Positions 5,370 through 16,170 of a DNA stretch of 64,000 bases are shown here, piece by piece; position 1 is the stretch's first letter, and every line of letters starts with the position of its first letter. This stretch comes from Pseudomonas saponiphila (GTDB taxonomy: Bacteria > Pseudomonadota > Gammaproteobacteria > Pseudomonadales > Pseudomonadaceae), in the NCBI RefSeq assembly GCF_900105185.1, contig NZ_FNTJ01000002.1, forward strand, positions 186,001 to 250,000. The letters are read 5' to 3'. The position numbers were made by a program, and so were the translations under genes. The notes beneath the pieces are model-generated. The model had not been told where the DNA came from. It saw nothing but the letters and a program-made list of their open reading frames with translations, and searched no databases.

Positions 5370-5437
5370 CCATCGCGACACCGAAACACGCAACACCGCT
5401 CACCAGGTTGAGGGACTAGACACCTCTCACCTTTTGA

Positions 5438-5471
5438 GGGCTTGGAGATACGTCTCCAGGCCCTTTTTTTT
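5438..5471 (+). terminator. Intrinsic terminator of aspA
   Basis: GGGCTTGGAGA (5438-5448) pairs with TCTCCAGGCCC (5453-5463) around TACG, followed by eight Ts (5464-5471). It lies about 70 nt past the aspA stop. Confidence 0.92.
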
Positions 5472-5712
5472 GCCTGGAGAAAAGCAGACTTTGTCAGGCG
5501 ATGCCGCCCCGCAACGAAGCAGAATCTCTTTGTTTTGTAGGGCAAATCCGAGAGAATCCCCCACGCCTTTGAGCGCCTTGTACCCCTTCGAACGATCAGG
5601 CAGTCTCCCGGTGCCGCTGCAAAATCAGCGGCCCGGATGTGGAAGTTCGGACCTGAGTAAGCATGAGCGCTCATGAGCATGGCTCGACGTATTTTCGTTG
5701 GCATCGCTTTAT
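5472..5712. other. Gene-free stretch with a 14-bp palindrome
   Basis: I find no credible gene here; the open frames are shadows. One perfect palindrome, CATGAGCGCTCATG (5662-5675), stands out about 50 bp before the structured RNA element. It could be an operator or simply a chance palindrome. Confidence 0.4.
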
Positions 5713-5800
5713 GGCGGTTGTGCGCGGGACACCTTCGGGTGTGCTGGGTTACTCAGTCCCGGTCTTCCACACCCTCGCACAACTGCCACCCCTCATGTGG
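5713..5800 (+). ncRNA. Structured RNA leader upstream of the DUF3077-like gene
   Basis: A 12-bp outer stem pairs 5713-5724 with 5776-5787 (one G-U pair). It encloses two smaller hairpins: ACACC-TTCG-GGTGT (5729-5742) and CTGGG/CCCGG (5744-5748 with 5758-5762). A further CCAC/GTGG hairpin follows near 5786-5800. The three-way-junction layout is on the plus strand, ending about 45 nt before the start of the small gene at 5844. I recall near-identical text (the ACACC-TTCG-GGTGT core) ahead of similar small genes in other Pseudomonas. I cannot assign it to a known RNA family. Confidence 0.55.
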
Positions 5801-5843
5801 AAGTGAGCTCGGCAGTCCGTTAACTACTGAGTGAGTGACCGTC

Positions 5844-6200
5844 ATGAAAAAGCTCGTCCCCGATCCACCCTTGCCCACCGATCGTCCGCGCCGCGACCCG
5901 GAGCTGGACCGCGCCAACGCCAACCTGCTGTCCGCCTTGCACGGCACCCGCCATCGCCCCTTCGGCCTGCGCGATGCCCAGGGCCGCCCGCTGTTCGCCG
6001 TGCAACCCCAGGTAAATGCCGAAGACGCCCTGATGCACGTTTCCTTGCTGCTCAAATGCGCCGAAGAGGTGTCCGATGAAATCACCGAACGAGCCAGCGG
6101 CATTGAACGTGGACTGATCTGGTCCATGGTGCATTCGGTTGAAATGGCCCGCGCCGTAGTGGACGCCCTGCTCGACGGCGCCCGCCCCGGCCCCGCCTAA
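5844..6200 (+). CDS. DUF3077/DUF6124-like small protein of unknown function
   Basis: A 118-residue soluble protein. The N-terminus is proline-rich and basic (MKKLVPDPPLPTD). The rest is mostly helical, with the pattern LFAVQPQVNAEDALMHVSLL (about residues 51-70) and a C-terminal HSVEMARAVVDALLDG helix. This matches small Pseudomonas proteins I know as DUF3077/DUF6124. No function is established. I chose the ATG at 5844; an in-frame GTG lies nine bases earlier and the ribosome-binding site (GAGTGA) is weak. The gene stands alone between the structured leader and a REP array, so the leader probably controls only it. Confidence 0.75.
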   Translation: MKKLVPDPPLPTDRPRRDPELDRANANLLSALHGTRHRPFGLRDAQGRPLFAVQPQVNAEDALMHVSLLLKCAEEVSDEITERASGIERGLIWSMVHSVEMARAVVDALLDGARPGPA

Positions 6201-6212
6201 CCACCGCCCCGT

Positions 6213-6619
6213 AGGAGCTGGCTTGCCAGCGAAGAGGCCCGCCCTGACTTCACCGGCATCCCGGCCGACGCTTTCGCCGGCAAGCCGGCTCCTACAACCC
6301 CAAACCCCGTACATCCCCGTAGGAGCTGGCTTGCCAGCGAAGAGGCCCACCCTGCCTTCACCGACATCCCGGCCGACGCTTTCGCCGGCAAGCCGGCTCC
6401 TACAACCCCAAACCCCGTACATCCCGGTAGGAGCTGGCTCGCCAGCGAAGAGGCCAGCCCTGCCTTCACCGACCTCCCAGCTGACGCTTTCGCCGGCAAG
6501 CCGGCTCCTACAACCCCAAACCCCGTACATCCCCGTAGGAGCTGGCTCGCCAGCGAAGAGGCCCGCCCTGCCTTCACCGACCTCCCAGCTGACGCTTTCG
6601 CCGGCAAGCCGGCTCCTAC
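6213..6619. repeat. Tandem REP array, four full inverted units
   Basis: Four GTAGGAGC...GCTCCTAC units of about 85 bp (6213-6295, 6319-6403, 6427-6511, 6535-6619) repeat with a period of 106-108 bp. Constant linkers read about AACCCCAAACCCCGTACATCCC. Each unit holds two inverted cores (GCTGGC/GCCAGC and GCCGGC/GCCGGC), the REPIN layout. Near-identity of the linkers indicates recent tandem duplication. It fills the gap between the DUF3077-like gene and the next CDS. Confidence 0.95.
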
Positions 6620-6727
6620 AGGTCTTGCGAACAACGTCGGGGCCTCGTTTTAAACAAGCACAATCCATGGCCCGCAGTGGATAATCGCCCCTCCCCAACA
6701 TCCGCCATCCCCGAGGCACCGCAGTCG

Positions 6728-7453
6728 ATGGACCCGACGCCCACCCAGGCCCTGCAACAGCTACGCGCCCTGATTCCGGTTGGCCTGCGCCACGCCCAGG
6801 CCCTGCTCGAGCGCTGTGCAGGCGATCCGCAGCACGCCGCCGAGTTGTACAAAACCGAGCTGCTGCAAGTGCTGGTAGACAAATCCGGCCTGTCCCCCGA
6901 ACAAGCCCGGGAACAACTGCACGCCGCCGGTTACGACCTGAACCGCACCCTGCACGCTATAGATGAAGCGCGCTTCACCCTGACCCAGCGCATCCTGCGC
7001 AAGCACCACCGGGACCCGGGCCAGGCCCTGGACCTGATCGCCCAAGCCATCGAAACCGCCGAGCAACTGCCGCGCCAGTACTGGCTGGACTTTGCAGCGC
7101 TGGAGCAACTGGCACCGGCACCGCGCTGCTTCATGATCCTGCACGAATGGCTGGCCTTCGAGGGCTGGGAAGGCTTCGACAGCGCCCTGCACTTTCATCT
7201 GCCCCAGGCCGTCGCCCAATTGCGCCACCTGCAGCTGGAGGCCCTGGCGGAAACCTTGGAACAGGCCGACCAACGCCAGCAACAACTGCGGGCCGCCCAT
7301 GCCGAAAGCGAAACCCCCGTCGAACTGGCCATGCGCATCAATCAGGACCCGCTGTTCAATCGCTGCCAGGACCACTTCCAGCAGCAGCGGCAGCCGCTCG
7401 CTGACTGTCTGCACCAGTGGGTGGAGCGGCATATAGAGCAGTTTCCCGCCTGA
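6728..7453 (+). CDS. Conserved unknown with UBA-like and possible DUF4375-like parts
   Basis: I do not recognise this 241-residue cytosolic protein as a named family. Two short helical modules at the N-terminus look like UBA domains of the EF-Ts type: one around residues 9-35 (ALIPVGLRHAQALLERCAGD) and one around 50-75 (SGLSPEQAREQLHAAGYDL). The middle (LAPAPRCFMILHEWLAFEGW...GFDSALHF) resembles the DUF4375/DMP19 fold, which binds other proteins. A protein-interaction role is inferred from these resemblances. The start is uncertain: ATG 6728 has GAGG 11 bases upstream, while a GTG at 6677 would add 17 residues. Confidence 0.65.
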   Translation: MDPTPTQALQQLRALIPVGLRHAQALLERCAGDPQHAAELYKTELLQVLVDKSGLSPEQAREQLHAAGYDLNRTLHAIDEARFTLTQRILRKHHRDPGQALDLIAQAIETAEQLPRQYWLDFAALEQLAPAPRCFMILHEWLAFEGWEGFDSALHFHLPQAVAQLRHLQLEALAETLEQADQRQQQLRAAHAESETPVELAMRINQDPLFNRCQDHFQQQRQPLADCLHQWVERHIEQFPA

Positions 7454-7533
7454 GCAACGAGCCGCTGCTCCCCGCACAGCAGAAATCGGTAAACTGCCGC
7501 CCTCACCGAACACGGACCTCGGATTCAGCCGCC

Positions 7534-8178
7534 ATGGAATTGCAGTACCGCCTCACCCCGGCCCACACCGAAGCCCGACTTGCCGAAACCCTGCCCCAGG
7601 CGCTGCTTGAGCAGGACCAGTTGCAGACGCGGATCGCCAGCGCCACCTCGCGCTGGCAGGGGCGCCTGCTCGGCCCGCTGATCCTGCTGCTGTGCCTGAT
7701 CGTCGCGCCCCTGGCGCTGTATTTTCCCGAGCGGCGCTTCACCCCGGAAAAGATCATCGCCCTGGTGCTCTGCGCGCTGATCTTCATCCCGCTCTGGTGG
7801 CGCTTTTCCGGGCGCCTGATCCAACGCCTGCAAGCCCGCACCCGCCAGCGCAAACCGCTGCGGGGGCTGAATCAGCGGCTGATCGAAGCTCGCCTGCGGG
7901 CACGCCTGAAGGCTGCCGAGGGCACTTACCACCTGAGCTTCGACGACCAGGGCTTGACCCTGAGCAAAGCTCCCCGAGCCAGGAACAGCCTGACCTGGGA
8001 GCAGATCGTGTACCTGCGCGAAGCAGCCAGTTTCTACGATCTGGCCGATGCCCAGATGCAGCGCAAGGGCCAGGCCTGGCGCATCGCCAAACACAGTGAA
8101 CTGATGGACGCCGAGGAATATCAGCAAGGGCTGCAAGCCTTTCTGAGCAAGTGCCCGGTGGCGCCGAGCGCCAACTGA
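7534..8178 (+). CDS. YcxB-like inner-membrane protein
   Basis: A 214-residue protein. A short N-terminal region is followed by two transmembrane helices (about residues 45-64 and 73-92) and a basic cytosolic C-terminal domain. That domain carries YHLSFDDQGLTLSKA...NSLTWEQIVYLRE, the pattern of the YcxB-type domain seen in small two-helix membrane proteins. No molecular function is known. The ATG at 7534 begins the conserved part (MELQYRL). It lies 80 bp after the previous gene and 34 bp before the seven-gene cluster, all on the same strand, so co-transcription is possible. Its own content does not point to biosynthesis. Confidence 0.6.
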   Translation: MELQYRLTPAHTEARLAETLPQALLEQDQLQTRIASATSRWQGRLLGPLILLLCLIVAPLALYFPERRFTPEKIIALVLCALIFIPLWWRFSGRLIQRLQARTRQRKPLRGLNQRLIEARLRARLKAAEGTYHLSFDDQGLTLSKAPRARNSLTWEQIVYLREAASFYDLADAQMQRKGQAWRIAKHSELMDAEEYQQGLQAFLSKCPVAPSAN

Positions 8179-8212
8179 TCACCTCACCCCGAGCCCCACA
8201 AACGGAATTTGC

Positions 8213-9232
8213 ATGCACACATCAGCGTCCTCCCCGCGCACCGCCCGCGCGCTAGCCATCCTCGGCACCGGCCACGCCCTGCCACAGCGGGTGGTCACCA
8301 GTGCCGAGCTGGACCATCAACTGGGCCTGGAATCCGGCAGCGTGGCGCGCATCAGCGGAGTGCAGCAACGCCACGTCGCCGCCCCCGCAGACACCGCCGC
8401 CAGCCTCGGCGCCAGCGCCGCGCGCCAAGCCCTGCACGCGGCCGGCCTGGCGCTGGATCAGCTGGACCTGATCGTCTGCGCCAGCGGCACCCAGGACCAG
8501 GGCATGCCCTGCAACGCCGCGCTGCTGCAACGGGAGCTGGGCCTGGGCCAGTCGGGCATCCCGGCCATGGACATCAACGCCAGCTGCCTGGGCGTTATTG
8601 CCGCCCTGGATACCCTGTCCTGGCCGATCCAGGCCGGGCATTACCGGCGCGTGCTGCTGGTGTGCGCCGACATCGCCTCCTGCGGCCTGGACTGGCAGCA
8701 GGTGGAAGTCTGCGGCATCTTCGGCGACGGCGCGGCGGCGGTGGTGCTGGGCCCGGGCCATGGCGGGCAGAAGCTCCTCGCCTCGCGCCTGAAGACCTAC
8801 GCCGAAGGCGCGGCGCTGTGCCAGATCCCCGCCGGCGGTTCACGCTTTCATCCGCGGCGCATCCAGGTGCCGTTCGAGCCCCTGACCAGCTTCGCCATGC
8901 AGGGCAAGGGCGTGTTCCGTCTCGCCGCCAAGCACCTGCCCGAGCTGCTGGACGATTTGCTGCAGCAAGCCGGGCTGACACTGGGGGATATCGACTGGGT
9001 CATCCCCCATCAAGCCAGCCAGCAGGCCATGCAGCACGCAGCCAAGCGCCTGAGCCTGGGGCCGGACAAAGTCATCGATATCTTTGCCCGGCACGGCAAT
9101 CAGGTGGCGGCCTCGCTGCCCACCGCCCTGGACATCGCGGTGCGCGACGGGCGCATTCAACGCGGGCAGACCCTGCTGCTGATCGGCACCGGCGCGGGCC
9201 TGTCCCTCGGCGGCATGATCCTGGAGTTCTGA
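8213..9232 (+). CDS. Ketosynthase III (FabH/OleA-like), first gene of an unknown biosynthetic cluster
   Basis: A 339-residue thiolase-fold condensing enzyme. The FabH-type triad is complete: Cys125 in NASCLG, His266 in VIPHQAS and Asn296 in RHGNQVAAS. The family joins an acyl-CoA to a malonyl-ACP or to a second acyl unit. It is unlikely to be the housekeeping FabH because it heads a seven-gene overlapping cluster with a reductase and ligases rather than fab genes. Pairing with an OleD-like dehydrogenase recalls olefin and beta-lactone pathways, but no OleB or OleC is recognisable. A FabH-type starter condensation for a secondary metabolite is the best guess. Confidence 0.85.
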   Translation: MHTSASSPRTARALAILGTGHALPQRVVTSAELDHQLGLESGSVARISGVQQRHVAAPADTAASLGASAARQALHAAGLALDQLDLIVCASGTQDQGMPCNAALLQRELGLGQSGIPAMDINASCLGVIAALDTLSWPIQAGHYRRVLLVCADIASCGLDWQQVEVCGIFGDGAAAVVLGPGHGGQKLLASRLKTYAEGAALCQIPAGGSRFHPRRIQVPFEPLTSFAMQGKGVFRLAAKHLPELLDDLLQQAGLTLGDIDWVIPHQASQQAMQHAAKRLSLGPDKVIDIFARHGNQVAASLPTALDIAVRDGRIQRGQTLLLIGTGAGLSLGGMILEF

Positions 9233-10239
9233 TGAAAATCCTGGTCACCGGTGGCACCGGTTTTATCGGACGGCATCTGGTGTGGAAGCTGGCCGCCGAA
9301 GGCTGCCAAGTGCAGTTCAGCGGACGCAACCCCGAGGCGGCGGCCGAGGTGATTGCCCACAGCCCGGCGCCGGTGCACTGGCTGCCCCTGGAGCACGGCA
9401 GCCCATTGGCCAAGCGCCAGCTGGCCGATGCCAGCCAGGAGCATGACGCCATCGTGCATTGCGCCGCGCTGTCCTCGCCCTGGGGTTCGCCCCAGGCCTT
9501 TGCCCGGGCCAACCTCGACTCCACCGCCGAGGTGATCCACGCCTGCGACAAGAACCGCATCCCGCGCTTGGTGCATATCTCCACCCCGAGCCTGTATTTC
9601 GACTTCAGCGACCGCCTGGGTATCCGCGAAGACCAGCCGCTGCCGCCGCCGGTGAACGACTACGCGCGCAGCAAGGCCCAGGCCGAAACCCTGCTGGGCG
9701 CGGCGGGCCTGCCCGAGTGCGTGATCCTGCGGCCCCGGGCGGTGTTCGGCCCCTGGGACGCAACCCTGATGCCGCGCCTGCTGCGGGTGATGCAACGCGG
9801 GTCGATTCCGCTGATGCGCGGCGGCCGGGCCCAGCTGGACCTGACCTGCGTCGACAATCTGGTGCACGCCGTATGGCTGGCCCTGACCCAGCCCCTGCCG
9901 CGCCCGCTGTGCGTCTACAACCTGAGCAACGCCACGCCCCTGGCCTTCCGGGATCTGTTGCAACAGCTGGCCGAGCACTTCCAGCTGCCGCTGCGCACCC
10001 GCCGCCTGCCCTGGCCCCTGGTGCATGGCGTGGCGCACCTGCTGGAACTCAAGGCGCGCCTGGGCAGCGGCGCCGAACCCTTGATCACCCGCTACGGCGC
10101 CGGCGTCCTGGCCTTCAGCCAGACCCTGGACATCAGCGCCATCCAGCGCGAGCTGGGCTACCGCCCGGTGATCAGCCAGGAACAGGGCATCCTCCAGCAC
10201 GCCCAATGGTGGCGGGACCAACTGAGGCAACGACCATGA
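9232..10239 (+). CDS. NAD(P)-dependent extended SDR reductase/epimerase, OleD-like
   Basis: A 335-residue extended short-chain dehydrogenase. It opens with the Rossmann motif VTGGTGFIG (residues 5-13) and has the active-site pair Tyr-x3-Lys in YARSK (about 143-147). The family oxidises, reduces or epimerises small hydroxy or keto substrates, so here it may reduce a beta-keto product of the ketosynthase. Its ATG shares one base with the ketosynthase stop (TGATG), indicating translational coupling. The C-terminal half shows the usual substrate-binding region (GGRAQLDLTCVDNL). Sugar epimerase activity is possible but less likely given the neighbours. Confidence 0.8.
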   Translation: MKILVTGGTGFIGRHLVWKLAAEGCQVQFSGRNPEAAAEVIAHSPAPVHWLPLEHGSPLAKRQLADASQEHDAIVHCAALSSPWGSPQAFARANLDSTAEVIHACDKNRIPRLVHISTPSLYFDFSDRLGIREDQPLPPPVNDYARSKAQAETLLGAAGLPECVILRPRAVFGPWDATLMPRLLRVMQRGSIPLMRGGRAQLDLTCVDNLVHAVWLALTQPLPRPLCVYNLSNATPLAFRDLLQQLAEHFQLPLRTRRLPWPLVHGVAHLLELKARLGSGAEPLITRYGAGVLAFSQTLDISAIQRELGYRPVISQEQGILQHAQWWRDQLRQRP

Positions 10240-11090
10240 GCCGCAGCGTGCGCTTGAAGATCCTCCGGGCCGGCTGGTGCCAGCACCTGGAATGCATGGC
10301 CGACCGTGGCGGGCGCCTGGCGCCGGTGCAGTTTCCGGCGCTGTGCGGGCTGATCCAGCACCCAGAGCACGGCTGGATTCTGTACGACACCGGCTACGCC
10401 GAGCACTTCTTCCAGGCCACCCGCACCCTGCCCGAGCGCCTGTACCGCAGCGCGGTGCCGGTGCAACTGCCGGTGGTGGAACAGTTGGGCGCGCAGTTGC
10501 ATGAGCTGGGCATCGGGCCGGGGGATATCCGCCAGGTGATCATTTCCCACTTCCACGCCGATCACATCGCCGGGCTGCGGGATTTTGCCAATGCGCGCTT
10601 CATTGCCCTGCAAGCCGATTACCGGCATATAGAAAGCCTGCGCGGCCAGCGTTGGCGCGCCACCCTCTGCGGCCATTTGCCGGGCTTGCTGCCGGACGAC
10701 TTCAGCGCCCGCCTGCGCCTGGCCGACGCCAGCCCCAGCTGCGCCCTGCCGGACTGGATGGCGCCCTTCGAGCAAGGCCTGGACCTGTTCGGCGATGGCA
10801 GCCTGATCGGCGTGCCGCTGCCGGGGCACAGTGAAGGCCAGCTGGGCCTGTTCATCCCCGACGCCCAGGGCCGGCCGGTGTTCCTGGTGGCCGACGCCTG
10901 CTGGTCGGTGCCGGCCTGCCGCGCCGAGCGCCTGCCCGCCGCCCCGGCGCTGTGGCTGGCCAGCGCCGACCGCCAGCAGTACGTGCGTACCTATCGCGGC
11001 CTGGGCCAGTTGATCCGCCGCGAGCCAGCGGTGGCGGTGCTGCCGTCCCATTGCACCCAGGCCTGGGAGGCGTTCGCCAATGAACAGTGA
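10236..11090 (+). CDS. Metallo-beta-lactamase-fold hydrolase
   Basis: A 284-residue MBL-fold protein with the dinuclear metal motif HFHADH (residues 105-110), a further His in PGHSEGQ (His198) and the bridging Asp220 in FLVADACW. The family hydrolyses thioesters, lactones and similar bonds. N-acyl-homoserine lactonases are among its relatives by this layout. In this cluster it may release or edit an acyl intermediate, or cleave a lactone. Its ATG overlaps the preceding stop by four bases (ATGA) and its end overlaps the next gene by 11 bp. Confidence 0.82.
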   Translation: MSRSVRLKILRAGWCQHLECMADRGGRLAPVQFPALCGLIQHPEHGWILYDTGYAEHFFQATRTLPERLYRSAVPVQLPVVEQLGAQLHELGIGPGDIRQVIISHFHADHIAGLRDFANARFIALQADYRHIESLRGQRWRATLCGHLPGLLPDDFSARLRLADASPSCALPDWMAPFEQGLDLFGDGSLIGVPLPGHSEGQLGLFIPDAQGRPVFLVADACWSVPACRAERLPAAPALWLASADRQQYVRTYRGLGQLIRREPAVAVLPSHCTQAWEAFANEQ

Positions 11091-12438
11091 ACGCCTGCTG
11101 GGCACCCTGCGCAGCATCGGCGCCTTCGTGTTCAGTCGCTACGTGCTGCGCTTTCGCCGCCGCGAGCGCCTGGAAGCCTGGCAGGCCCGGCGCCTGCGGC
11201 ACTTCATGGCCAAGGTCATGCCCCGTGGGCAGCGCTTCAAAGGGCTGCCCCACGGCGGCCTGCAGAGCCTGCCGATCATGGACAAGGCAGCGCTGATGAG
11301 CGATTTCGCCGGCTTCAACACCCGCGCCCTGAGCCTGGAGCAGGTGTTGCCGGTGGCCCTTGAAGCGGAACAGTCACGGGACTTCAGCCCGACCCTGGGC
11401 GACATCACCGTGGGCCTGTCCAGCGGCACCTCGGGGGCCCAGGGGGTATTCCTGGTCAGTAGCGTGGAGCGCCAGCGCTGGGCCGGCATCCTGCTGGCGC
11501 GGACCCTGCCCCGGGCCTTGCTGCCGCGGCTACTGTGCCCGTGGCTGGCGCCGCTGCGCATCGCCTTCTTCCTGCGGGCCAATAGCCGTCTGTACACCAC
11601 CCTGGCCAGCCGCCGCATCGACTTTGCCTTTCATGACCTGACCCTGGGGCTGGGCGCATCCCTGGAGCACCTGAACCAGCAGCAACCGGACGTGCTGGTG
11701 GCGCCGGCCACAGTGCTGCGCGGGCTGGCCCAGGCGGCCCTGGCCGGGCAGTTGACGATCCGCCCGCAACACATTCTGTCGGTGGCCGAAGTGCTGGAAA
11801 GCACTGACGCCGAGCTGGTCCGGCAAGCCTTCGGGCGCCAGCCCCGGCAGATCTATCAGGCCAGCGAAGGCTTTCTCGGCTACAGCTGCGAGGCCGGCAC
11901 CCTGCACCTGAACGAAAGCCACCTGCACATCGAGCCGCAGTGGCTGGACCCGCAACGCTCGCGCTTTCAGCCGATCATCACCGACTTTTCCCGGCGTACG
12001 CAGTTGATCGTGCGTTATCGCCTCAATGACATCCTGCGGGTGGCCGAGGCGCCCTGCCCCTGTGGCCGCGCAGAGCGGGCCATCGCCGCCGTGGAAGGCC
12101 GCGCCGACGAGATTCTCTGGCTGCCCCGGCTCCACGGCCAGACGCTGGGACCGCTCTACCCCGACCTATTGCGCCGAGCCCTGCTGATGCTCGGCGCAGC
12201 GCTTGAAGAGTACGAGATTCACCAGCGCGGCCTGCTCTGGCAGATCAACCTGCGCGCCTCGGGCGACTACCACCAGCTGTGCCAGCGTTTGCGCGAGGCA
12301 CTGGCCGAGCTGTGTGCACAACAGACGCTAGCGCCGCCGAGCCTGAGCTTCGGCCACTGGCAAGCGCCGCCGCCACAGACCAAGAGACGCCGCCTGCTGA
12401 TGCTGCAACTGCCCGAGGGACTGCCATGCATGTACTGA
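11080..12438 (+). CDS. F390-synthetase/CapK-like adenylate-forming enzyme
   Basis: A 452-residue adenylating enzyme of the coenzyme F390 synthetase/CapK/PaaK group. The phosphate-binding loop is SSGTSG (residues 114-119). An adenine-site motif YQASEG sits at 259-264, the hinge-type RYRLNDI is at 312-318, and a CPCG motif (326-329) is typical of the PaaK/CapK branch. It should activate a carboxylate as the acyl-AMP. F420 genes are absent, so the true F390 reaction is not expected. A family called putative adenylate-forming enzyme (TIGR02304) fits this description, from memory. It overlaps both neighbours. Confidence 0.78.
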   Translation: MNSERLLGTLRSIGAFVFSRYVLRFRRRERLEAWQARRLRHFMAKVMPRGQRFKGLPHGGLQSLPIMDKAALMSDFAGFNTRALSLEQVLPVALEAEQSRDFSPTLGDITVGLSSGTSGAQGVFLVSSVERQRWAGILLARTLPRALLPRLLCPWLAPLRIAFFLRANSRLYTTLASRRIDFAFHDLTLGLGASLEHLNQQQPDVLVAPATVLRGLAQAALAGQLTIRPQHILSVAEVLESTDAELVRQAFGRQPRQIYQASEGFLGYSCEAGTLHLNESHLHIEPQWLDPQRSRFQPIITDFSRRTQLIVRYRLNDILRVAEAPCPCGRAERAIAAVEGRADEILWLPRLHGQTLGPLYPDLLRRALLMLGAALEEYEIHQRGLLWQINLRASGDYHQLCQRLREALAELCAQQTLAPPSLSFGHWQAPPPQTKRRRLLMLQLPEGLPCMY

Positions 12439-13580
12439 TTCTCGGCGCCCGCGCCCCGGCCTGCCTGGAGTGGGCCCGGGCCTTTAGCCAAGCCGGCTGG
12501 ACGGTGACCGTGGCCGATTCCCTGGCCCAACCCCTGAGCCGCTTCAGCCGCGCCGCCCGGCACTTCGTGCGCCTGCCGGAGCCGCGCCACGACCCGGACG
12601 CCTGGATCGAAGCCCTGGCCGGGGTGATCCGCCAACAGGCCATCGACCTGCTGCTGCCCACCTGTGAAGAGGTGTTCTACCTGGCCCACGGCCTTGAGCG
12701 CCTACGACCTTTGTGCCGGGTGTTCACCAGCGACTTCGAGTTGCTGCACCGCCTGCACCACAAGGGCGATTTCGCCGCCATGACCCAAGGCTGGGATGTG
12801 GCCACGCCACCGACCCAGGTGCTGCACGACCCGGCCGGGGTGCAGGCTCTGGCGGCCGAGCACGACGCCCTGGTGTTCAAGCCGGCCTATTCGCGCTTCG
12901 CCTCCCAGACCCTGATCCGCCCGAGCCCGGCGCAACTGGCCAAGGTCCGGCCCAGCGCCGAGGCGCCCTGGGTGGCCCAGCAGTTTGTCCCCGGCCAGGA
13001 ACATTGCAGTTTCAGCGTGCTGGTGGACGGCCAGTTGCGCGCCCACAGCAGCTACCAGCCGCGCTACCGGGTCGGGCGCGGCTCGGGGATCTACTTCCAC
13101 AGCGGAGCCCCGGCGCCGGTCCGCGCCTTTTTGGAACAGTTCGGCCGGGCCACCGGCTACACCGGGCAAGTGGGTTTTGACTTTATCGAGGACCAGCAAG
13201 GCCGCTTCCATGTGCTGGAGTGCAACCCCAGGGCCACCAGCGGCGTGCACCTGTTCGACGACCAGCGGCTGCAACTAGTGGCGGCGCTCGGCAGCGAAGC
13301 CAGCGAGACGCTGCAAGCGACCCTGGAACCCCGGATGATCGCCCTGGCCATGCTGCTTCTGGCGGCGCCGCAACGGGCCTTGAGCCGCACGTTCTGGCAC
13401 GACTACCAACAAGCCCGGGACGTGATAGTGCAGGACGGCGATCGCGGCCCGCTGACTGCCCAGCTGCTGAGCCTGGGCGAGATCATCGGCCGCGCCCTGA
13501 CCCGCCGCTGCGGGCTGCTGGCCGCCTCCACCGCCGACATCGAGTGGAACGGCCAGCCCCTGGGAGCACCGCGCCGGTGA
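12426..13580 (+). CDS. ATP-grasp carboxylate-amine ligase
   Basis: A 384-residue ATP-grasp protein starting MHVLILGARAPACLEWARAF, a Rossmann-like pre-ATP-grasp domain. It has the ATP lysine in VFKPAYSR (Lys152), an acidic GFDFIED (about 250-256) and the metal-binding VLECNPRATSG (Glu265, Asn267), the diagnostic ATP-grasp end. Such enzymes join a carboxylate to an amine or thiol through an acyl-phosphate. Within this cluster it may attach an amino acid or amine to the activated product. Its start lies 13 bp inside the previous gene. No carbamoyl-phosphate synthase features are present. Confidence 0.8.
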   Translation: MHVLILGARAPACLEWARAFSQAGWTVTVADSLAQPLSRFSRAARHFVRLPEPRHDPDAWIEALAGVIRQQAIDLLLPTCEEVFYLAHGLERLRPLCRVFTSDFELLHRLHHKGDFAAMTQGWDVATPPTQVLHDPAGVQALAAEHDALVFKPAYSRFASQTLIRPSPAQLAKVRPSAEAPWVAQQFVPGQEHCSFSVLVDGQLRAHSSYQPRYRVGRGSGIYFHSGAPAPVRAFLEQFGRATGYTGQVGFDFIEDQQGRFHVLECNPRATSGVHLFDDQRLQLVAALGSEASETLQATLEPRMIALAMLLLAAPQRALSRTFWHDYQQARDVIVQDGDRGPLTAQLLSLGEIIGRALTRRCGLLAASTADIEWNGQPLGAPRR

Positions 13581-14716
13581 AGCTGCTGATGCCCGAACAG
13601 CTTGCCCAGCAAGCGCCGAGCGCCGACGACAGCCACGCCCGGCGTTACGTGCGCACCTGCGCCGGCGGCGCGCTGATCGGCAATGTCAGCACCGCCCTGG
13701 CCCTGCTGGACACCGGCGCGCAGCAGTTCCCGGTAAGCATCAACCACGGCCACGACCCGGTGGATAACTGCTACGTGGTGTCGCCGCAAACCGCCTACAG
13801 CGGCTACGCCCGGGAAGAACTGCAACGCCTGAAACGGCCCTGGCTGGCCTGGCCGCTGAAGCTGCTGACTCAGGGCGTGGACCGGCTGCTGAGCGCGGCC
13901 AAGGTCGACCGGCTGGTGCAGGTCAACAACTGGCTGCTGTCCACCAACCTCTACCCACCCGACTGGGACGGCGCGGATTTGCCGGCCATCACCGAACTGC
14001 TGCGCCGACAGTTTCCCGACCACGGCTTCGGCTTTCGCTCGCTCAACGACTTCAGCAACCACGAGCTGCGCAAGCGCCTGCAAGCCCTGGGCTACCTGGC
14101 GATTCCCAGCCGCCAGGTGTACCTGTTCGACGGCCGCGAGGGCGAGAAGTCCGCCTTCCTGCGCCACCACAACACCCGCCTGGACGCCACCCTGCTGCGC
14201 CGCAGCCCGTATACGGTGGTGCCCGGTAGCGAGTTGAACGAGGCCGATTTCCAGCGCATCGAGCAGTTGTACAACCTGCTGTACCTGGATAAATACAGCC
14301 GCCTCAACCCCCACTACAGCGCCCAATGGCTGCAACGCGGGCAGACCGAAGGCTGGCTGGAGGTGCGCGCCCTGCGCAACGCCGAGGGGCGCATCGACGG
14401 TGCCCTGGGCTGGTTCGCCAACAGCAGCCTGATCAGCACGCCCATCGTCGGTTACGACACCGCCCTGCCCCAGCGCGCCGGGCTGTACCGGCAACTGACC
14501 AGGCTGTGCCTGCAAGAAGCGGCGGACCGGCGGCAGGTGCTCAACTTCAGCTCCGGCGCGGCGGCCTTCAAGCGCCTGCGCGGTGGCCAGCCCGAGATTG
14601 AATACAGCCTGATTCACGTCGCCCACCTGCCCTGGCCGCGCAGGCTGGTGTGGCAACTGATGGGCCTGCTGTTGCAACGGATAGGCGTACCGCTGATGAG
14701 GAAGCTCAAACTGTGA
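13577..14716 (+). CDS. FemAB/GNAT-like acyltransferase
   Basis: A 379-residue protein with a GTG start overlapping the previous stop (GTGA); an in-frame ATG lies at 13589. The first 100 residues carry no known motif I recognise. The C-terminal half (about 190-350) has the pattern of Acetyltransf_6/FemAB-type GNAT folds, including LYLDKYSRLNPHYSAQWL and WFANSSLISTPIVGYD. Such enzymes transfer acyl or aminoacyl groups, so it may cap an amine formed by the ATP-grasp ligase. The assignment to the fold is by pattern only, without a clear acetyl-CoA pyrophosphate loop, and is the least certain in the cluster. Confidence 0.6.
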   Translation: MKLLMPEQLAQQAPSADDSHARRYVRTCAGGALIGNVSTALALLDTGAQQFPVSINHGHDPVDNCYVVSPQTAYSGYAREELQRLKRPWLAWPLKLLTQGVDRLLSAAKVDRLVQVNNWLLSTNLYPPDWDGADLPAITELLRRQFPDHGFGFRSLNDFSNHELRKRLQALGYLAIPSRQVYLFDGREGEKSAFLRHHNTRLDATLLRRSPYTVVPGSELNEADFQRIEQLYNLLYLDKYSRLNPHYSAQWLQRGQTEGWLEVRALRNAEGRIDGALGWFANSSLISTPIVGYDTALPQRAGLYRQLTRLCLQEAADRRQVLNFSSGAAAFKRLRGGQPEIEYSLIHVAHLPWPRRLVWQLMGLLLQRIGVPLMRKLKL

Positions 14717-15729
14717 ACAGTCACTCGGGCTGGTGGCCCGTCGCCCTGAGCCGACAGCTGCGCAAGCAACCTTTGGCCTGCACCCTGCACGGCGTGCCGC
14801 TGGTGCTGTTCCGCGACGCCAACGGCGCCCCCGCCGTATTGCCGGACCGCTGCCCCCATCGCTTCGCGCCACTGAGCGCCGGGCGGGTTCGGGACGGGCA
14901 GATCCAGTGCCCCTATCACGGCTGGCGCTTCGACCCCCAGGGCCGCTGCACCCAGTTGCCCGGCCAGGCGCAGCAGCGTTGCAGCCAGCCGTTGCTGCAA
15001 CCCCTGCACAGCTGCGAAGCCCAGGGGCTGGTGTGGGCCAGCCTGGCCCGCGAGCGGCCCAATACGCCACCGGTGGCCGCCGCCGAGCAGGCCCAGGCGC
15101 TGGATGTGTTCTGGATCAGCGACCGGGTGCAATGCAGCTTGCAGGACGCTGCGGAGAACTTCCTCGACGGCTTCCACACCCATTTCGTGCACGCGGGCTG
15201 GATTCGCCACGACCGCCAGCGCCAGCGCATTCGCGCCTGGGTGCATCAGCTGGATGACGGGGTTGAAGCGCAGTACAGCGAAGAAGGCACCCAATCCGGG
15301 CTGATTTCGCGGCTGTTCGAGGGTGAACGCGGCCTCAGCATGGGCCGCTTCCGCCTGCCGGGGCTGGCGGAAATCGAATACCGCGACCGCCAGGGCCGGC
15401 TCAACCTGCTGGTCAGCGCCTGGCTGAGCCCGGCCGCCGAGAGCCAACTGCAGCTGTTCGCGCGCATCGCCACGGCCCGGGGCCGCCTGCCGGGCTGGCT
15501 CAAGCGCGGCGTGCTGCAGCCTTTGTTCAAGGTGATCCTCAAGCAGGACCGGCAGATCCTCGAACAGGTCAGCGCCAACCAGCAAAGCTTCGCCCAGGTG
15601 CCGCTGCGCTGGCAGCGGCCCACGCCCCTGGACAGCTCGCTGGATCTGCTGGGGCCGTGGATCCGGCAATTACTGGAGCAAGGTGAACTGCAGGACTTTC
15701 AAGAACGCCGAGAGGAATTCTGGCTGTAA
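14713..15729 (+). CDS. Rieske non-haem iron oxygenase
   Basis: A 338-residue oxygenase alpha-subunit-like protein with a GTG start overlapping the previous stop (GTGA). The Rieske [2Fe-2S] ligands are in CPH (Cys47, His49) and CPYHGW (Cys66, His69). The mononuclear iron site is N-x2-D-x2-H-x4-H: Asn149, Asp152, His155 and His160 in NFLDGFHTHFVH. The family hydroxylates, desaturates or demethylates. No ferredoxin or reductase partner lies in the window. As last gene it may tailor the finished scaffold. A REP unit starts five bases after its stop, marking the probable end of the operon. Confidence 0.85.
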   Translation: MNSHSGWWPVALSRQLRKQPLACTLHGVPLVLFRDANGAPAVLPDRCPHRFAPLSAGRVRDGQIQCPYHGWRFDPQGRCTQLPGQAQQRCSQPLLQPLHSCEAQGLVWASLARERPNTPPVAAAEQAQALDVFWISDRVQCSLQDAAENFLDGFHTHFVHAGWIRHDRQRQRIRAWVHQLDDGVEAQYSEEGTQSGLISRLFEGERGLSMGRFRLPGLAEIEYRDRQGRLNLLVSAWLSPAAESQLQLFARIATARGRLPGWLKRGVLQPLFKVILKQDRQILEQVSANQQSFAQVPLRWQRPTPLDSSLDLLGPWIRQLLEQGELQDFQERREEFWL

Positions 15730-15733
15730 TCCC

Positions 15734-15815
15734 GCAGGAGCCGGCTTGCCGGCGAACCAGCCCTCAAGACGGGCGCCGCTCAAGCGGGCCCCTTCGCTGG
15801 CAAGCCAGCTCCTAC
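15734..15815. repeat. REP/REPIN unit after the Rieske gene
   Basis: Inverted pair GCAGGAGCCGGCTTGCCGGCG and CGCTGGCAAGCCAGCTCCTAC with about 40 bp between them. It is a slightly diverged member of the REP family seen throughout the window. Confidence 0.9.
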
Positions 15816-15968
15816 GGTTGGCAACGGTATCACGGGGCTGATGCGGGCCCCTTGGGGCCCCTGTTCGCGGGGTGTTGCAGGGCGTGACAAGAACCGTTTC
15901 AGCCCGCCGCCGGCACTGCCGTTCCTCGGCTCGACACGCAACATGCAGACGGCGAGCCCGCGCACCGG

Positions 15969-16110
15969 TATAGTGCGCCCCCTCTTCACGTGGACAGCCG
16001 TCGGTAACGAGGCTCGCCCCACGGGAAACCCGAACTAATAACAACCCGCGAAAGATAGAACCGGGACGAACACTCGCCCCACCGCTCTGCCGTGCGTGCA
16101 ATCAGCGGTG
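15969..16110 (+). promoter_or_regulatory. Promoter -10 and structured leader of the alanine/sodium symporter gene
   Basis: TATAGT at 15969-15974 is a -10 candidate with a weak -35. The roughly 180-nt leader that follows can form a nested stem (CGTGG 15989-15993 with CCACG 16019-16023, AGCC/GGCT inside) and a 7-bp stem CACCGCT/AGCGGTG (16080-16086 with 16104-16110). The text CTCGCCCCAC occurs twice (16014-16023 and 16073-16082). It lacks the conserved cores of the glycine riboswitch. From 15816 to 15968 I see nothing else. Confidence 0.4.
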
Positions 16111-16170
16111 TAACTGAATGTTTCCGTCCGTTCCGCTTTTGCCTACACAAAAAACAGCGAGGAATAATCC

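Follow-up and report, generated by a model that had tools for sequence, protein, structure and literature searches.

The OleABCD and OleACD pathways, to which an excerpt of PMC7064751 assigns long-chain olefins and beta-lactones, have clustered genes for a thiolase-fold condensing enzyme, a reductase (OleD), an adenylate-forming enzyme and a hydrolase. The same four kinds of enzyme are clustered in Pseudomonas saponiphila, in a stretch of 64,000 nucleotides (positions 186,001 to 250,000 of contig NZ_FNTJ01000002.1, assembly GCF_900105185.1; hereafter the window) from a 7.38 Mb genome in 4 contigs, and here ATP-grasp, Fem-like and Rieske genes are additional. The cluster spans 8213-15729 and consists of seven intact open reading frames (ORFs), all on the + strand and each overlapping the next, with successive overlaps of 1, 4, 11, 13, 4 and 4 bp. 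An original prediction made from the sequence had described seven genes overlapping by 1-13 bp, two of them with GTG starts, and its coordinates, overlaps and start codons all agree with those listed here.

8213..9232, + strand: ketosynthase III (KSIII, or KS), core gene 1; FabH/CorB-like, with Cys125, His266 and Asn296, and Met-Pro where OleA has Glu-Pro
9232..10239, + strand: extended short-chain dehydrogenase/reductase (SDR), core gene 2; closest curated family OleD; Ser117, Tyr144 and Lys148
10236..11090, + strand: metallo-beta-lactamase (MBL)-fold hydrolase, core gene 3; HxHxDH motif (His105, His107, Asp109, His110) with His198, Asp220 and His272
11080..12438, + strand: F390-synthetase-related adenylate-forming enzyme, core gene 4; TIGR02304
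12426..13580, + strand: ATP-grasp enzyme of the PRK06849 family
13577..14716, + strand: two-GNAT-domain transferase with Fem/MprF fold, resembling aminoacyl-tRNA-dependent transferases; GTG start
14713..15729, + strand: Rieske non-heme iron oxygenase, terminal oxygenase alone; GTG start; Cys47, His49, Cys66 and His69, and His155, His160 and Asp279

The first four genes, for KSIII, the OleD-like reductase, the metallo-hydrolase and the F390-like enzyme, form a core that recurs in Pseudomonadota, Bacillota and Fusobacteriota, and the genes that accompany it differ between lineages. Besides the ATP-grasp, Fem-type transferase and Rieske genes of the window, the end genes are PAP2, fatty-acid hydroxylase and desaturase in some Pseudomonas and in Escherichia coli, a sulfotransferase in Paracoccus and glycosyltransferase 21 (GT21) in Fusobacterium.

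Seventeen loci from genomes of named species were matched by the F390-like query. Pseudomonas strains, among which P. protegens appears several times, are the closest named relatives, and all 14 named Pseudomonas loci carry the seven genes in the same order and on the same strand with 67-96% identity. Hahella sp. HN01 has the same seven genes at 34-43% identity, again with order and strand unchanged. An F390-like relative (E <= 1e-20) was detected in 18 of 298 Pseudomonas genomes, including that of the window, and the core genes adjoin in all 17 others, at least 4 of which are the same records as named loci. The core is followed by ATP-grasp, GNAT and Rieske genes in 12 of the 17 (in one, the contig ends inside the Rieske gene and the KS was matched in two pieces) and by PAP2, fatty-acid hydroxylase and desaturase genes in 5. 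At E <= 1e-30, 7 of 299 Pseudomonadota genomes, again with the window's own, contain an F390-like relative, and the other six all have the core. One of these is of the E. coli type, two carry GNAT and Rieske genes with a divergent ATP-grasp gene, two carry ATP-grasp and Rieske genes with no GNAT match (one with the SDR in two pieces), and one locus (L053 in genome G822, 8528-8827 and upstream) has the core only, followed by 9 kb of unrelated genes without the E. coli-type end genes. A class-wide search with TIGR02304 gave matches (E <= 0.001) in 57 of 229 genomes, but only the window's own genome and G238, which has the four core genes, exceeded the cut-off, the other 55 matches being weak. 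Searching 57 relatives for the ATP-grasp protein yielded 5 matches, namely the window's own, one in a genome that has the cluster (G018) and three weak ones at 22-29% identity.

As the Pseudomonas and Pseudomonadota surveys were anchored on the F390-like gene, they measure which partners stand beside that gene, not how often the partners occur alone. The original prediction would have failed had the orthologues usually been unlinked in other genomes; beside the anchor, the core was found in 17 of 17 Pseudomonas and 6 of 6 other Pseudomonadota genomes, which does not refute it. Its view of the seven genes as one functional unit is supported, but the cohesive unit is the four-gene core and the seven-gene set is one of several versions.

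Plasmid records extend the range of arrangements. An F390-like match was found in 55 of them, and of the 13 that were read, 11 hold the four core genes together. A Paraburkholderia record contains the core with ATP-grasp, GNAT and Rieske genes, the last matched in two pieces, and a Shinella record contains the core with GNAT, Rieske and a divergent ATP-grasp gene. The core is accompanied by a divergent sulfotransferase and a TetR gene in Ketogulonicigenium and two Paracoccus records, and E. coli KE48 and Burkholderia stagnalis records carry the E. coli-type cluster. In Paenibacillus and Pontibacillus the ATP-grasp gene lies between the KS and SDR genes, and Paenibacillus also has the GNAT gene. 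The Pseudomonas FeN3W megaplasmid has the core followed by an unassigned ORF. In another Pseudomonas megaplasmid, pMPPla107, the order is KS, hypothetical gene, SDR and MBL, with the F390-like and ATP-grasp genes about 15 kb further on; its core genes are thus spread over approximately 20 kb (L073 3968-7218; L031 7893-11481) with unknown genes between. In the Leaf58 megaplasmid, no KS gene was present within the 15 kb read and the SDR gene appears to be split.

A seven-gene operon in Fusobacterium vincentii (L070 2204-9147) encodes an SDR, GT21, an unknown protein, a second SDR, MBL, F390-like enzyme and KS, and includes no oxygenase gene. It sits in a 2.1 Mb record filed as a plasmid. When the Fusobacterium KS was searched back against plasmid records (E <= 1e-40), nine were hit; six hits fall inside clusters read here, the E. 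coli CP054248 hit is about 2 kb from the F390-like hit, that in pMPPla107 is about 18 kb away, and the ninth record is from Priestia. Partial versions occur in the actinobacterium Herbiconiux, which adds a cytochrome P450, and in the archaeal-labelled bin Euryarchaeota UBA486, which adds a cupin/JmjC-type protein; neither locus gave a match to the MBL protein. In the UBA486 locus (L020 5575-7367) the ORF after the KS gene also has a weak likeness to KS (20 bits to PRK09258).

Of 5426 complete E. coli genomes, 672 contain the E. coli-type cluster; at least 80% of its 6.9 kb is present in 671, and 671 of its 673 places are chromosomal. Its extra genes encode PAP2, FA_hydroxylase and FA_desaturase proteins, the second having OlsE as its top curated family (66.6 of 475 bits). 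The genomic position was read in two strains, ABU 83972 and KE48; in ABU 83972 (NC_017631.1, L033 3001-9882), an isolate from asymptomatic bacteriuria, the cluster is chromosomal, flanked by narI and by tyrosine tRNA genes that adjoin purU. A 386 kb E. coli record filed as a plasmid (NZ_CP141085.1, L028) contains the normally chromosomal narGHJI-purU-galU region and is possibly a piece of chromosome; it contributes to the plasmid counts.

A tree built by a quick method from the four core proteins (26 rows) places the six E. coli-type rows and the core-only L053 in a single clade, and the two sulfotransferase rows pair (both with a Shimodaira-Hasegawa-like approximate likelihood ratio, SH-aLRT, of 100). 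Rows with ATP-grasp and Rieske genes do not form a single clade, and the positions of L018, L020 and L054 are unsure because their branches are long. These clades, together with the scattered ATP-grasp/Rieske rows, indicate that the core was kept together while its ends changed.

The seven Pseudomonas genes are a real inherited unit and are under purifying selection, with ratios of nonsynonymous to synonymous substitution (dN/dS) of 0.10-0.23 for all seven in three pairwise comparisons with relatives. The window has aspA up to 5369 and agcS from 16171 onwards. Nine relatives without the cluster, which are the best AgcS matches other than the window's own (51 of 59 genomes have a match), were compared over the same region; the gap between aspA and agcS is 435-616 bp in all nine, and none of the seven genes is present in the 12.5-13 kb read from each. 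This empty site means that the cluster is either part of a 10.8 kb insert or has been lost by those relatives at this site. The G+C content is 68-70% in the cluster, 62-66% in the left flank and 63-69% in the right flank.

5370..16170, no strand: cluster-bearing insert, flanked by aspA and agcS; also contains a DUF6124/DUF3077 ORF (5835-6200) and two ORFs without a Pfam match

A 108-bp unit is repeated in 3.8 copies with 96% match at 6207-6620, where it yields spurious-looking ORFs, and a segment resembling it directly follows the Rieske gene near 15735-15815. The repeat looks like one of the repetitive extragenic palindromic (REP) kind.

Alignments used to assess active sites contained 31-48 rows per gene, including the window protein and many close kin. 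Rows with <60% coverage were excluded, which in the Rieske alignment removed L026, whose match is in two pieces, and L035, truncated at a contig end. The residues listed above for KS, SDR and MBL are invariant or nearly so, as are Glu263, Asp317, Arg341 and the GxSxGTxG loop of the F390-like enzyme. In the Rieske protein, those listed and Asn149/Asp152 are invariant in 31 rows, and they provide the CxH...CxxH cluster ligands and a two-His/carboxylate mononuclear iron site. Conserved residues of this kind are the catalytic ones in these families, and the earlier claim of intact active sites is borne out for these five enzymes.

The KSIII protein matches PF08541 and PF08545 and lies below the cut-off for the housekeeping FabH family TIGR00747 (248.6 vs 292.1 bits) but above that of the broader subfamily NF006829 (263 vs 249). 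The top curated family for the SDR is the OleD 2-alkyl-3-oxoalkanoate reductase (NF042422), at 164.3 bits far under the cut-off of 580, and those for the MBL protein are acyl-homoserine lactone (AHL) lactonases and pyridoxo-lactonases. Quorum quenching through AHL hydrolysis was considered, but the AHL lactonase score is only 75 of 390 bits and the gene is tied to the core. The F390-like enzyme passes TIGR02304 (384.7 bits, cut-off 251.9) and otherwise matches only DVU_1553/PaaK/FlxY-type families and, in PDB, PaaK-type structures, with zero matches in Pfam. Lys435 near its C-terminus has apparent counterparts in five relatives, as judged from unaligned sequences. A role in F420/F390 coenzyme metabolism was rejected, as TIGR03335, the true F390 synthetase family, is not among the matches of the window protein and scores only 22 of 459 bits with the E. 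coli relative.

The ATP-grasp enzyme passes PRK06849 (444.1 bits, cut-off 406), and its model (predicted local distance difference test, pLDDT, 91) has a fold like those of the carbamoyl phosphate synthetase (CPSase)-like protein 2PN1, glycinamide ribonucleotide (GAR) synthetase, PurK, biotin carboxylase and PylC. The GNAT-fold protein of the window matches no Pfam or NCBIfam model, and 20 of 47 aligned homologues match PF13480. Sequence searches found no credible PDB relatives for either protein, and those named come from fold comparison. By this comparison the latter has a two-GNAT-domain Fem-like fold, which is also found in enzymes dependent on coenzyme A (CoA) that have a double GNAT, and is closest to the peptide synthases Sbb17 and Sba18, solved with streptothrisamine. 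Its identity to Fem-type ligases, MprF and Sbb17/Sba18 is only 9-15%, with no match by sequence search. A Fem/MprF-type transferase thus fits the fold better than the plain acylating enzyme proposed originally. Phe331 and Lys332 are invariant, a pair reminiscent of the Phe-Lys catalysis of FemX, although no such mechanism is claimed here. The Rieske protein matches Rieske (PF00355, 77.6 bits) and VanA_C. Sterol demethylation, with the Rieske protein like SdmA and the SDR like SdmB, was rejected on scores of only 57.6 and 34.4 of 600 bits.

The cluster may well make an undescribed lipid-like compound, and the earlier reading of acyl-type chemistry is supported. The preferred reading, tentative and given somewhat under an even chance, is that the operon has spread horizontally and directs the synthesis of a lipid-like acyl metabolite, its Ole-like core being conserved and its end-group module exchangeable. 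The substrates, the order of steps, the lipid nature of the product and direct use of aminoacyl-tRNA are inferred, as is every step that follows, from families and folds. KSIII would load an acyl thioester onto Cys125 and condense it with a second thioester, giving a beta-keto product whose reduction by the OleD-like SDR would yield a beta-hydroxy acyl compound. The MBL enzyme may hydrolyse a thioester or lactone, and the F390-like enzyme, standing in for OleC of the Ole pathway, would convert the carboxylate to acyl-AMP. The ATP-grasp enzyme would join a carboxylate and an amine, the Fem/MprF-like transferase would use aminoacyl-tRNA to add an aminoacyl group, and the Rieske enzyme would hydroxylate the product using a reductase from elsewhere in the cell. 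The predicted end group in the window is an amino acid or amide, plus the hydroxylation.

Enzymes of the GT21, fatty-acid hydroxylase, PAP2, desaturase and sulfotransferase families are used on sphingolipids and ornithine lipids. Related clusters resemble the tailoring of those lipids in carrying these families, but the window version does not contain such modules. As the end-gene families of other lineages largely act on lipids, a lipid is favoured over a small diffusible product. A broader form of this proposal is possible but doubtful. It envisages an undescribed lipid class that spans phyla. An Ole-like core without a dedicated carrier protein would make its backbone, a beta-hydroxy acyl chain that is possibly alpha-branched, and the sphingolipid-like head groups or modifications of the chain would be interchangeable by lineage. 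These would be aminoacyl or amide plus Rieske hydroxylation in the window, hydroxylase, desaturase and PAP2 modifications in some Pseudomonas and in about one-eighth of complete E. coli genomes, sulfate in Paracoccus and a sugar in Fusobacterium.

Rather than a structural lipid, the product could be a small diffusible natural product, such as an antibiotic, toxin or signal, that links amino acids to a short or medium acyl unit as streptothricin-type or belactosin-type pathways do. Patchy presence, here in 18 of 298 Pseudomonas genomes, and insertion at a single site are typical of secondary metabolism, the nearest folds to the GNAT protein are the Sbb17/Sba18 peptide synthases, and ATP-grasp ligases couple amino acids in pathways of this kind. 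However, by profile matches (Pfam/NCBIfam) none of the seven genes encodes a transporter, resistance protein or regulator, and the lipid-type tailoring genes of the E. coli, Fusobacterium and Paracoccus versions make this alternative rather unlikely. As originally claimed, the seven genes also include no carrier protein and no polyketide synthase (PKS) or nonribosomal peptide synthetase (NRPS) module, and on the prediction's view standard cluster finders may miss them. The missing carrier protein separates the window KS from CorB and the 4V2P ketosynthase, which are among its three best structures (214 and 211 bits, a FabH-type entry scoring 213) and have the NASC active-site context in common with it. 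Those two, the stand-alone ketosynthases of corallopyronin and myxopyronin, act alongside PKS assembly lines that have carrier proteins.

It is unlikely that the cluster is itself an Ole-type beta-lactone or olefin pathway, in which the F390-like enzyme would close the ring as a beta-lactone synthetase and the MBL enzyme would open or decarboxylate it. The four kinds of chemical role are those of OleABCD, and the top curated family of the SDR is OleD. In the excerpt of PMC7064751, all but two of the aligned OleA sequences have glutamate at 117 with proline next after it. The window KS has Met98-Pro99 at this place, and Met, Leu or Ile occupies the glutamate position in 45 of the 47 rows with letters there, the register to OleA resting on the proline and on L018 and L020, not on an alignment with OleA itself. 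Only L018 and L020, the distant Herbiconiux and UBA486 members, have Glu-Pro. The top NCBIfam model for their KSs is PRK09258 (158 and 132 bits, cut-off 285), which presumably covers OleA, but their best solved structures are FabH-type and speak against the link (110.6 vs 105.0 bits for OleA with the Herbiconiux KS; 66.4 vs 57.6 bits with that of UBA486). The F390-like enzyme co-occurs with KSs of both signatures, and every locus read that has a KS also has a related SDR. NCBIfam, Pfam and PDB searches gave no OleC-type match for the adenylating enzyme, which is of the F390/PaaK type, and the MBL fold differs from OleB, an alpha/beta-hydrolase. Since the window KS lacks the OleA glutamate and the window's adenylating enzyme is not of the OleC type, the comparison supports a pathway that works like Ole, not one that is Ole.

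An operon whose Rieske enzyme, CoA-ligase-like enzyme and lactonase degrade or detoxify an acyl or aromatic compound is improbable. Catabolic pathways often use Rieske enzymes and PaaK-like ligases, and the MBL families named above are lactonases. However, the FabH-like condensing enzyme, ATP-grasp enzyme and Fem-like transferase are rather biosynthetic, and there is no oxygenase gene beside the core in Fusobacterium or Paracoccus alcaliphilus, a ring-hydroxylating dioxygenase gene in Paracoccus sp. MA being approximately 7 kb away. Chance neighbours without joint function can practically be dismissed, for although tight overlaps are common in Pseudomonas operons, the set stays together across phyla and the core is cohesive while its flanks change.

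The original prediction knew of no described pathway with this gene set, and none was found in open-licence PubMed Central (PMC), for the window cluster or for the E. coli version, though a subscription paper could exist. In the excerpts seen, PMC2649909 names an 'F390 synthetase' in a type II fatty-acid synthesis (FASII) cluster among ladderane candidates, PMC5467263 has one table line and PMC5501837 one gene in an expression study; none of these was used as evidence. Likewise unused is a transposon mutant, IYO_RS29540, named coenzyme F390 synthetase in an excerpt of a Pseudomonas syringae pv. actinidiae mutant screen (PMC9823363), which is a candidate family member at most.

The family is wider and more structured than the window sequence alone could reveal, its chemistry still being a matter of prediction. 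The exchange of end genes on a fixed core amounts to a built-in experiment, in which the core would define the backbone and the module the end group. If the proposal is correct, TIGR02304, so far named only 'F390 synthetase-related', would gain a function, and a family of lipids or lipid-like metabolites would have been overlooked in well-studied bacteria, including the E. coli genomes counted above and a Fusobacterium.

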